This document shows, in pieces, positions 11,985 through 46,791 of a stretch of 64,000 nt of DNA. The position numbers and the translations under genes were made by a program. The notes below the pieces were generated by a model, which saw only the letters and a list, made by a program, of their open reading frames with translations, made no database searches and was not told the DNA's origin. The DNA lies in NCBI GenBank assembly GCA_902618695.1, contig CACNCB010000001.1, positions 1 to 64,000 on the forward strand, read 5' to 3'. Every line of letters starts with the position of its first letter. Position 1 is the first letter of the stretch. This stretch comes from an uncultured Pelagibacteraceae bacterium. Its GTDB lineage: Bacteria > Pseudomonadota > Alphaproteobacteria > Pelagibacterales > Pelagibacteraceae.

Positions 11985-12092
11985 ATTTTATTTGTAGAGC
12001 ATAGTTAAAATACAAAAAAGGCAATAAAATGATATTAAATAAGGTGTAATTCTTATTAATTGACTTAAATCATTTAACAGATACAAATCCAT

Positions 12093-12236
12093 TATCGGGA
12101 GAGACTATTTATAGCGCCGAAGGAGCAACCACCCCGGAAACTCTCAGGCAAAAGGACCGATAAAAGCATAACACTCTGGAAAGAGATTGATTTCCGCCGA
12201 AGGAGTAAAGCTCTCAGGCAAAAATACAGATGGGGT
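12093..12236 (+). promoter_or_regulatory. Tandem glycine riboswitch (two aptamers) upstream of glcB
   Basis: Two copies of the glycine aptamer core, 'atcgggagag...gcgccgaaggagcaa...aaactctcaggcaaaaggaccgat' and 'ctggaaagagatt...ccgccgaaggagtaaagctctcaggcaaaaatacag', directly before the malate synthase start. Confidence 0.95.
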
Positions 12237-38685: not shown

Positions 38686-38817
38686 ATGGAACTAATTTTA
38701 GTATTAAAAATATTCTTTATTATTTGTGTTATTGTTGCACTTTATGCAATTATTAGAAATCTAGATATTATCAAAATTATATTAATTTATTGGAAAGACT
38801 TAATTTTTAGAAAGTAA
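38686..38817 (+). CDS. Putative 43-aa single-TM protein (below ORF-track length cutoff)
   Basis: ATG...TAA: MELILVLKIFFIICVIVALYAIIRNLDIIKIILIYWKDLIFRK; fills the gap between divergent rmuC and convergent hisG. Confidence 0.45.
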   Translation: MELILVLKIFFIICVIVALYAIIRNLDIIKIILIYWKDLIFRK

Positions 38818-39492
38818 TTTTACTATTTTTTTAAGACCCATTTTATTGTTGGATGACTTAGAAATCATCATGCAGGCCTCTGATCTTAATATTTCTCCAT
38901 CCTTTAAAATACGTAGATTGTTTGCTTTTAACGTTTCTCCAGTAGAAGTGATATCTGTAATTATTTCTGATGAGCCTGTAAAAGGATAAGCTTCAGTTGC
39001 ACCCAAACTATCAATTAATTTGAATTGGGTAACGCCTTTTGAAAACAAAAATTCCCTTGTTAAGTTTGGATATTTTGTTGCTACTCTTAATCTTTTCTTT
39101 TTCTTATCTTTAAATTCAAATGCAATTTCTTCTAAATCTGCAACTGTTTGTACATCTATCCATGGATCAGGAATTGCGACTACTAATGTAGCCTTACCAA
39201 AATCATATCTGTTTAAAACATAAATTTTCTTTTGAGTGTTAATTTCACTTTCCTTTAATAAATCAAAGCCAGAAAAACCTATGTCCAAAGATCCGTCTCC
39301 AAGTCTTTCGATGATCTCTCTTGCATGAAGATATAAAATCTTAATATTTTTAAATTGTTTTATAGATCCCAAAAGATCTCTTTCTCCTCTTTCAGAAATG
39401 AGATTTAATTTATTTTTTTTAAAAATATTTAAAACATCTTTTCTAAGTCTGCCTTTACTTGGGATACCAATATTTAAAATATTTTTTGTCAT
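38800..39492 (-). CDS. hisG: ATP phosphoribosyltransferase, HisZ-dependent short form
   Basis: IGIPSKGRLRKDVLNIF, GFSGFDLL, DITSTGETLKAN; followed by hisZ. Confidence 0.94.
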   Translation of the reverse strand: MTKNILNIGIPSKGRLRKDVLNIFKKNKLNLISERGERDLLGSIKQFKNIKILYLHAREIIERLGDGSLDIGFSGFDLLKESEINTQKKIYVLNRYDFGKATLVVAIPDPWIDVQTVADLEEIAFEFKDKKKKRLRVATKYPNLTREFLFSKGVTQFKLIDSLGATEAYPFTGSSEIITDITSTGETLKANNLRILKDGEILRSEACMMISKSSNNKMGLKKIVKLLSKN

Positions 39493-40547
39493 TAGTAATT
39501 TAAATTTAAAGCAGCACCTACTGCTGGAGTTTGTTTTTTTGATCCTAAGTCTGAAATTAGACCATCATAACGACCACCATTAACAATATTTTTTAATGAG
39601 TTTTTAGATTTAATATCAATTTTAAAAACCATCCCAGTGTAATATTCTAATTGCCTTCCAAAGGATGCAGAAAAAACTACATTTAATTTTGAAACCTTGT
39701 TATTAGAAATTGGAAAATATTTTTGATCTACAGCTAAATTTATTCTGTTTTTTTTAAAAAATTTATTTAACTCAATTGCTGCTTTATTTATGGGACATTT
39801 AATTTTTAAAAAATCTTTTATTACTTTTGAAACATTTTTTCCTTTGCTAGCTCTTCGAGGATCTTTTATTTTCTGATCAAATCTTTTTAATATTTCATTA
39901 ATTGTTCTTCCCGCTACAATATTTGATAAATCTTCTTTAAGCATTTTCACGTAACGCTTCTTATCTATTTCTACAATTGTTGGATCAACATCTGAATTAG
40001 TTTCTAATCTTTTTAATAAATCATTAAAATATTCTTCTCTCCAGAAGTGTCTGGATAATCTTAGCTTCCATCTCTTTGGAATATCCAATTTTGAAATTAA
40101 CAAATTAAATATTTCAACATTTCCAATAGTAAGTGTTCCTGAAGAATATTTGATATTTTGAAGCGATTTAAGAGATGTATTTATAATTTCTTTATCGTCA
40201 TTTTTCTCATCCCTAGATCCTAAAATTTCAAATCCAATTTGATTTCTAATGATTGAGTCTTTTTTATTTTGTGATTTTCGATAAGCCTGACCACTGTAAA
40301 AAATTTTTTCTTTACCTTTTAAATTATTTTCTAGGTATCTTAAACAAGATGCAATCGTTAAATCTGGTCTTAAGCATAACTCACTTCCATTCTGATCCGT
40401 AAAAGAAAAGATAAATTTTCTAAAATTTTCTCCTGATCTTTGGACAATGTGATTAGCCTCAATTACTGAAGGTAAATCAATATATTTAAAACCCTTAGAT
40501 TTCACAGATCTAAGGATATTTTCAGATAAGTTTTTTGACTTCATCAA
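39492..40547 (-). CDS. hisZ: ATP phosphoribosyltransferase regulatory subunit
   Basis: HisRS-paralogue sequence (LCLRPDLTIASCLRYL, GGRYDGLISDLGS) next to short hisG. Confidence 0.9.
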   Translation of the reverse strand: MMKSKNLSENILRSVKSKGFKYIDLPSVIEANHIVQRSGENFRKFIFSFTDQNGSELCLRPDLTIASCLRYLENNLKGKEKIFYSGQAYRKSQNKKDSIIRNQIGFEILGSRDEKNDDKEIINTSLKSLQNIKYSSGTLTIGNVEIFNLLISKLDIPKRWKLRLSRHFWREEYFNDLLKRLETNSDVDPTIVEIDKKRYVKMLKEDLSNIVAGRTINEILKRFDQKIKDPRRASKGKNVSKVIKDFLKIKCPINKAAIELNKFFKKNRINLAVDQKYFPISNNKVSKLNVVFSASFGRQLEYYTGMVFKIDIKSKNSLKNIVNGGRYDGLISDLGSKKQTPAVGAALNLNY

Positions 40548-41916
40548 TTAAATTTTCTTTCGGAAACGTTTTATTGTTTTCACCCTTAACACCTTTAAGG
40601 CTTTTTATCGTGACTGTATTTTCATTAAATTCATTTTCACCACAAATAATTGCAACATCTAATTCACGTTTATTTGCTAAGGTTAATTGCTTACCTAAAT
40701 TTTTATTTATATCTAAAAAAATTTCAGCATTGATATTATTATCTCTTAATAAATCTAAAATTTCATAGTAAATTTTAAGATATTTTTCATCCATTACACA
40801 AACTAAAACTGGTTTTTGACTTTCTACTTTTATTTGATCTAATTGCATCAAAGCAAACAACAATCGATCTACTCCAAAACTAATTCCTGTACCTGGAATA
40901 TCCACACCTTTAAATCTTGAAATTAACTTTGCATAAGCTCCTCCAGAACAAATACTGCCTATATCGACCTCTTTACCTTTATTATTTGTAACTTTAAAAT
41001 TTAGATTTGTTTCAACAATGAAATCTGAATAATAAGCTAATCCTCTAACAATTGTAAAATTTGTTTTGACCTGGTTTAAATTTGAACTGTAGCCCAATAT
41101 TTCGAATACTTGTTCTAATTCTTTTATACCTTCTTGAGACAATGGATTTTTTAATGTTTCTTTTAATTCTTTTAAATCTTGAATTTTTAAAAAATTAAGT
41201 ATTTCAGACGCTTGTTCATCGTTTAAATCTGCACCCTTAGTGATTGCGCCACTTATATCTTTTCTCTCTTTTTTAAGTAGATCTTCAACACCTTTTAAAC
41301 CAAAACCTGGTTTATCTAATTTATCAATTGCCCTAATTACTTTTGCTTGCTTTTCTCCTGATATTTTTAAATCATCAATTAATCCTTGGACTATTTTTCG
41401 ATTACTGATGTTAATTGTAAATTGATCTTTTTTCAGACCACAATCCAACAAAGTACTTGATATTAAATTGCAAAGCTCAGCATTTGCTTGAGCAGGATTA
41501 ACATTTCCCACAATGTCAAAATCTGCTTGCATAAATTCTCTGTACCTTCCATTACCAGCCTTTTCGTTCCTAAAAACATTTTGAATAGCATATCTTTTAA
41601 AGATTGATGGAAGCTGTTGATTATTTTGTGCAACAAATCTAGCTAGTGGACTTGAAAGATCATACCTAAGAGTAATGTTTTTTTCTCCATCCTGAAATGA
41701 GAATACATCAGACATAGGATTAGCATCATCTTCTGCCAAAAAAGATCCTATATTTTCACTTATCTCAAACGAAGGGGTTTCCAGAGCTTCTGCTCCAAAT
41801 TTAATAAAATTATTCTCAATAGCTTTTAAAAGCCTTTTTTTGAGAAGAAGTTTTTTATCCCAACGATCTTCAAATCCTGACGGTAATCCAGGAATTAATT
41901 TTTTTTCTTTATTCAT
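40522..41916 (-). CDS. hisS: Histidyl-tRNA synthetase (divergent alphaproteobacterial type)
   Basis: GLPSGFEDRW, LRYDLSSPLARFVAQN, VFRNEKAGNGRYREFMQADFDIVG, GISFGVDRLL. Start set at MNKEKK; ORF-track extension runs into the tRNA. Confidence 0.94.
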   Translation of the reverse strand: MNKEKKLIPGLPSGFEDRWDKKLLLKKRLLKAIENNFIKFGAEALETPSFEISENIGSFLAEDDANPMSDVFSFQDGEKNITLRYDLSSPLARFVAQNNQQLPSIFKRYAIQNVFRNEKAGNGRYREFMQADFDIVGNVNPAQANAELCNLISSTLLDCGLKKDQFTINISNRKIVQGLIDDLKISGEKQAKVIRAIDKLDKPGFGLKGVEDLLKKERKDISGAITKGADLNDEQASEILNFLKIQDLKELKETLKNPLSQEGIKELEQVFEILGYSSNLNQVKTNFTIVRGLAYYSDFIVETNLNFKVTNNKGKEVDIGSICSGGAYAKLISRFKGVDIPGTGISFGVDRLLFALMQLDQIKVESQKPVLVCVMDEKYLKIYYEILDLLRDNNINAEIFLDINKNLGKQLTLANKRELDVAIICGENEFNENTVTIKSLKGVKGENNKTFPKENLIDEVKKLI

Positions 41917-41920
41917 TTTT

Positions 41921-41995
41921 TGGTACCCGGGCTGAGAGTCGAACTCAAACTTAAAGTTCCACAAACTTCCGTGCTAACCATTACACCACCCGGGC
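41921..41995 (-). tRNA. tRNA-His (GTG)
   Basis: Minus strand GCCCGGGTGGTGTAATGGTTAGCACGGAAGTTTGTGGAACTTTAAGTTTGAGTTCGACTCTCAGCCCGGGTACCA folds as cloverleaf; anticodon loop TTGTGGA; encoded CCA. Confidence 0.95.
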
Positions 41996-42520: not shown

Positions 42521-42595
42521 TGGTGGCTGAGGAAGGATTCGCACCTCCGACACAAGCCTTTTCAGGGCTCTGCTCTACTCCTGAGCTACTCAGCC
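42521..42595 (-). tRNA. tRNA-Phe (GAA)
   Basis: Minus strand GGCTGAGTAGCTCAGGAGTAGAGCAGAGCCCTGAAAAGGCTTGTGTCGGAGGTGCGAATCCTTCCTCAGCCACCA; anticodon loop CTGAAAA. Confidence 0.95.
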
Positions 42596-46717: not shown

Positions 46718-46791
46718 GCTCCTGTAGTTAAATGGTATAACAAGTCATTGGTAATGACTAGTTCCCTGGTCAGTACAGGGTGGGAGCACCA
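46718..46791 (+). tRNA. tRNA-Thr (GGT), atypical T-arm
   Basis: GCTCCTGTAGTTAAATGGTATAACAAGTCATTGGTAATGACTAGTTCCCTGGTCAGTACAGGGTGGGAGCACCA; anticodon loop TTGGTAA; CCA encoded. Confidence 0.88.

Follow-up and report, generated by a model that had tools for sequence, protein, structure and literature searches.

Histidine identity is a textbook, nearly universal tRNA rule, and it is broken in one bacterial lineage. Canonical bacterial tRNA-His carries G−1:C73 and is paired with a Gln-type histidyl-tRNA synthetase (HisRS). In Caulobacter, histidine identity resides in A73, U72, and the anticodon (PMC9976931), and the Caulobacter-type tRNA-His/HisRS pair is orthogonal to the E. coli pair (PMC3875453). 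Seven of eight SAR11 genomes share A73, the lack of a templated G−1, and a Gly in the HisRS motif-2 loop with the RRCH clade, to which Caulobacter crescentus belongs (PMC3937112). The histidine systems of trypanosomes, Acanthamoeba, and C. elegans mitochondria also use G−1-less tRNA-His, but these are separate lineages, the protist HisRS is described as non-canonical, and exchange of tRNA bodies is not reported there (PMC9976931).

The window (the whole 64,000-nucleotide stretch of Pelagibacteraceae DNA analysed here) contains a tRNA-His gene that is the first gene of a tRNA-His-hisS-hisZ-hisG unit, with the following features:

41921..41995, minus strand: tRNA-His(GUG), 75 nt, predicted by ARAGORN (gtg), matched by Rfam RF00005 (59.5 bits), and read from the sequence
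41995, minus strand: G1, which pairs with U72 (41925); the base 5′ of G1 is A (41996), so no G−1 is templated
41924..41925, minus strand: U72 (41925) and discriminator A73 (41924), read from the sequence
41960..41962, minus strand: anticodon GUG (ARAGORN), invariant in relatives
41975..41982, minus strand: D-loop AATGGTTA, with G18 at 41979 and G19 at 41978; covaries with the T-loop in relatives
41937..41943, minus strand: T-loop TTCGACT, with canonical U54 U55 C56 ... A58 in the window; replaced in relatives
41917..41920, minus strand: 4-nt spacer AAAA between the tRNA CCA and the hisS ATG, read from the sequence
40522..41916, minus strand: hisS, HisRS, 464 aa; ATG at 41916, kept in most relatives
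41533..41574, minus strand: HisRS motif-2 loop FRNEKAGNGRYREF, Gly-type, like those of G−1-less systems
39492..40547, minus strand: hisZ-like HisRS paralogue (ATP phosphoribosyltransferase regulatory subunit), named from its PF13393 match and its position before hisG
38800..39492, minus strand: hisG-like ORF, named from sequence reading and gene order

Elsewhere in the window, a glycine riboswitch aptamer is present at 12086–12169 on the plus strand (RF00504, 68.6 bits).

The tRNA-His gene, read 5′ to 3′ on the minus strand (41995 to 41921), has the form GCCCGGG...CCCGGGT-A-CCA, with a genome-encoded CCA and with a canonical elbow (G18–U55, G19–C56, and U54–A58). ARAGORN, Rfam, and the letters themselves bear out the original prediction of G1:U72 and A73 with no encoded G−1. 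The comparison of positions 1, 72, and 73 that it proposed, performed on 40 distinct sequences from the family Pelagibacteraceae, reveals G1:U72 in all 40, A73 in 37, and G73 in 3; chance is excluded for G1:U72 because the pair is kept in every one of these distinct sequences. The base at position −1 is unconstrained (T in 40, A in 19, G in 16, and C in 4 of 79 relatives). In 34 sequences aligned in detail, C2:G71 is present in 33, and T8, G10, A14, C25, U33, G34-U35-G36, and G37 are invariant. The window gene is the only tRNA-His found among 31 tRNA hits in its own genome (89% complete). The same 75-nt gene is present letter for letter in G078, a relative with a complete, single-contig genome; 30 of the 32 tRNA hits of G078 were read and include no further tRNA-His. 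The second, canonical tRNA-His that had been named as counter-evidence was found in neither genome. A search for a Thg1-like enzyme, also proposed beforehand, found no Thg1 (PF04446) in the window's own genome.

The neighbouring hisS contains the motif-2 text that had been quoted as divergent, and the loop is of the Gly type. PF13393 matches two proteins, HisRS itself and the HisRS-like paralogue adjoining hisG, which we take as HisZ. The closest HisRS relatives in named genomes are from Pelagibacteraceae, at 97% identity, which places the window genome in this family, the SAR11 group. Among relatives of solved structure, the best match is human HARS (6e-46), against 2e-12 for the E. coli enzyme. 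Several alphaproteobacterial HisRS that are more distant from that of the window read RGERxQxGR.

The absence of a constrained G−1, the presence of U72 and A73, the Gly motif-2 loop, the absence of Thg1, and the finding of a single tRNA-His all agree with the Caulobacter-like identity originally claimed. These marks, which are the ones that sequence can reveal, support assignment of the window gene to the known G−1-less, Caulobacter/RRCH type. The prediction of a G−1-less gene is right, but the trait was known: an earlier study had described it in SAR11 (PMC3937112). By extension from Caulobacter, where such reading is established, the Gly-type HisRS would read G1:U72, base 73, and the GUG anticodon, rather than G−1:C73. 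The amino acid, anticodon, and fold class are those of canonical bacterial tRNA-His, but neither G−1 nor C73 is present and the synthetase loop is Gly-type rather than Gln-type. The SAR11 pair differs from the described RRCH pair in three respects: the tRNA gene lies a few nucleotides before hisS; the tRNA body appears to be exchanged among strains; and one subclade combines G73 with a longer motif-2 loop. The papers searched describe none of these three features.

The gap between tRNA-His and hisS is 3–7 nt, and usually AAAA, in 71 of 79 family genomes, and is 23–29 nt in the other eight. The longer gap often resembles a short hairpin (L176, L182, L185, and L194; e.g. ACGTCTTGGAGGACGT). In 30 other alphaproteobacterial families, tRNA-His was never found within 1.5 kb of hisS. 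A gap of four nucleotides, as in the window, could hardly accommodate a promoter or Shine-Dalgarno site for hisS alone; hisS is therefore probably expressed from the transcript of the tRNA, and probably translated from an almost leaderless message after tRNA 3′ processing. A promoter and terminator scan upstream of tRNA-His yielded too few sites above chance to be informative.

The slot before hisS contains about ten classes of tRNA body across 80 family genomes, under similar HisRS, and the bodies are well conserved within each class. ARAGORN missed tRNA-His in six of 80 close relatives from named genomes; reading of the sequence reveals, at the same position in these genomes, a very different tRNA-His (e.g. 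GCCTTGG-TGGTGAAATAGTATCACG...AGGAGCGTAACCT...CCAAGG-T-A-CCA). Infernal detects the D class and misses the E and H classes. The D-class gene is the only tRNA-His found in the complete genomes G003 and G063, and checks of G174, G268, and G384 turned up no further tRNA-His. Many of the genomes compared are single-cell or metagenome assemblies, and the body classes appear in complete, single-contig genomes too. A source for the D body beyond SAR11 was sought in 385 alphaproteobacterial genomes; the search returned SAR11 matches and one match in G773, at which ARAGORN identifies no tRNA. Two tRNA-His genes, L186 (G300) and L397 (G827), have no complete encoded CCA (...GTA-CGCCC and ...GCTG-CAATT, respectively), unlike the rest of the family.

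The distribution of the classes points to exchange. The tRNA-His of the window is 65% identical to that of G003 or G063; of the 26 other tRNAs comparable with both genomes, 18 reach 96% identity or more in each. Mapped onto a HisRS tree of 66 rows, the body classes require no fewer than 25 changes, where the minimum possible is 10; recombination inside hisS may inflate the count of 25. G137, which carries the window allele, and G184, which carries a D-class body, are sisters on this tree with 100/100 support; their flanks are 96–99% identical, dropping to 88–92% in the roughly 300 bases nearest the gene, and their tRNAs are 58% identical. Similarly, the window and L052 have flanks that are 90–100% identical and tRNAs that are 78% identical. 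Conversely, the 75-nt allele of the window recurs in G078 and G137, the HisRS of which are 81% and 77% identical to that of the window, and identical 75-nt alleles in general recur over HisRS that are 77–97% alike. HisRS does not change in step with body class, with the exception of the G73 group described below. In the sequences compared, body classes are thus seen to replace one another over similar HisRS in the slot, some 4 nt before hisS.

The possibility that this is an ordinary RRCH-type tRNA-His, and that the diversity among relatives reflects nothing more than the drift to be expected of a tRNA freed from G−1, is consistent with the canonical D- and T-loops of the window gene and with the earlier report of the identity trait for SAR11. 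It is unlikely, since drift does not yield classes that are interleaved yet internally conserved; identical 75-nt alleles in divergent HisRS backgrounds and 58%-alike tRNAs between near-identical flanks under sister HisRS argue further against it. Sorting of ancient tandem tRNA-His copies by differential loss, without recombination between strains, would account for classes that are old and well conserved internally. It would, however, require a long-lived multi-copy ancestor to yield at least 25 changes on the tree, two tRNA-His bodies were found together in no genome examined, and in the aligned set the gene is always at one position, 3–29 nt before hisS; we consider differential loss very improbable. 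Short-tract recombination between strains is the simplest and most likely reading of the diversity of the slot. The conserved upstream DNA and the start of hisS could provide the homology for such exchange. Recognition by HisRS appears to be confined to the two ends of the tRNA, the tip and the anticodon, which would leave the rest of the molecule free to change.

Replacement of the body is not specific to tRNA-His, given that the window genome also differs strongly from G003, G063, or both in Arg-ACG, Leu-CAA, Thr-GGT, and Ser-GGA. In particular, tRNA-Arg(ACG) (L106) and tRNA-Leu(CAA) (L110) of the window's own genome are about 68–69% identical to their G003 counterparts, a possible sign of replacement. 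The tRNA-Thr(GGT) gene at window positions 46718–46791 on the plus strand, 5 kb from tRNA-His, has T-loop GTCAGTA (G54...G58) and is 66% identical to its G003 counterpart, and may be another exchanged tRNA. The turnover of a few other tRNAs, together with the high turnover of bodies at constant function, would also fit a scenario in which selection on the tRNA body drives exchange, for example because bodies escape phage or toxin nucleases that cleave tRNA-His, or because the gene serves as an integration site. We regard such selection as doubtful. With hisS beginning only about 4 nt beyond it, the tRNA gene would be a poor integration site, and phage carriage of the bodies, searched in IMG/VR viral contigs with patterns from five body groups (D, A/B, C, F/G, and E/H), returned no match.

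The bodies differ from one another at the elbow, in the contacts between the D-loop and the T-loop. Of the 40 distinct sequences, 22 have G-U and 18 have A-G at positions 18 and 55, and positions 54 and 58 are U-A, A-U, or G-G; neither pair is ever mixed, and the sequences are related, such that the pair counts are not counts of independent events. G039 provides an independent double change: its gene departs from the rest of class L at 18 and 55 together, as well as at further positions. G-type bodies are F-like bodies in which both 18 and 55 are changed. G1091 and G174/G1067, all in the G73 clade, differ by G19–C56 versus U19–A56. The pattern well supports retention of the D-/T-loop contacts by alternative pairs, with a geometry that we infer: the elbow would survive through paired changes from G18–U55 to A18–G55, from U54–A58 to A54–U58 or G54–G58, and, once, from G19–C56 to U19–A56.

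A second tRNA gene of the window carries the alternative elbow:

42521..42595, minus strand: tRNA-Phe, with an A18/G55 elbow, D-loop AGGAGTA, and T-loop TGCGAAT

The tRNA-Phe acceptor stem has two forms among relatives (GGCTGAG and GCCTCGG). In the window's own genome, tRNA-Val(GAC) (L107, G000:C3:46445-46516) also has A18/G55; its unusual T-loop (AGCGTAA) and D-loop (AATAGTA) match those of D-class tRNA-His, and the similar T-arms of the two tRNAs may reflect a common origin. A strict pattern found no A18/G55 tRNA-Phe outside SAR11 in 385 genomes; the pattern is narrow, and A18/G55 may occur elsewhere. Combinatorial suppressor-tRNA work on D-/T-loop contacts may already describe functional alternatives to G18–Ψ55. 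A literature search found no report of A18–G55, although subscription papers were outside its scope and novelty is therefore not proven. In eukaryotic tRNA-Ala, as in SAR11, the conserved 54–58 pair of the T-loop is naturally replaced (A54/A58, with R15/A48; PMC7566577). The SAR11 pairs are instead A54–U58 and G54–G58, together with A18–G55, and the pairs of tRNA-Ala were not observed in bacteria in that study.

Four genomes (G174, G1067, G1091, and G827) carry a tRNA-His with G1:U72, G2:C71, and G73. The HisRS motif-2 loop in all four reads FRNE-TS-KTGRGRYRSF, versus FRNE-KAGNGRYREF elsewhere, a clean two-residue insertion in a loop that is expected to contact base 73. Because the new base 73 and the new HisRS loop coincide in the same genomes, we argue for coadaptation, and the combination probably represents a third histidine identity, in a group that comprises four draft genomes of one clade. 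Assembly error or contamination could be suspected of a trait carried by only four drafts. This explanation is hardly credible: the four assemblies are separate, have HisRS 73–88% identical to that of G174, and all share the loop; on a 222-kb contig, G174 retains the SAR11 order of tRNA-Phe, tRNA-His, and hisS; and the tRNA-Val(GAC) of G174 is identical to that of the window genome. The literature search also found no report of a G73 tRNA-His, with subscription papers again outside its scope and novelty thus not proven.

Taken as a whole, the locus is best explained as a known G−1-less tRNA-His, the bodies of which are exchanged over similar HisRS, with paired elbow changes and with a probable third, G73 identity in one subclade, a reading to which we assign a probability of roughly 0.8. 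A more specific formulation, which we hold with somewhat less assurance though still consider probable, is of an allelic cassette of about ten circulating bodies served by a HisRS that reads the tip and anticodon, with A18–G55 and A54–U58 or G54–G58 as equivalent elbows, and with G1:U72, G2:C71, and G73 as a coevolved identity. As far as our literature search reaches, neither the exchange of bodies, nor the paired changes at the elbow, nor the G73 subclade appears to have been reported.

Several of the bodies escape detection by ARAGORN or the Rfam model, and SAR11 annotations may therefore give the impression that tRNA-His is absent. The SAR11 tRNA-His/HisRS pairs are possible orthogonal parts for genetic code engineering. 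The paired elbow changes suggest working natural alternatives to the G18–Ψ55 and T54–A58 contacts in free-living bacteria, and the G73 clade offers a second, testable case of enzyme-tRNA coadaptation. The SAR11 locus, with one type of enzyme and many tRNA bodies, constitutes a natural experiment that would show what HisRS must read.
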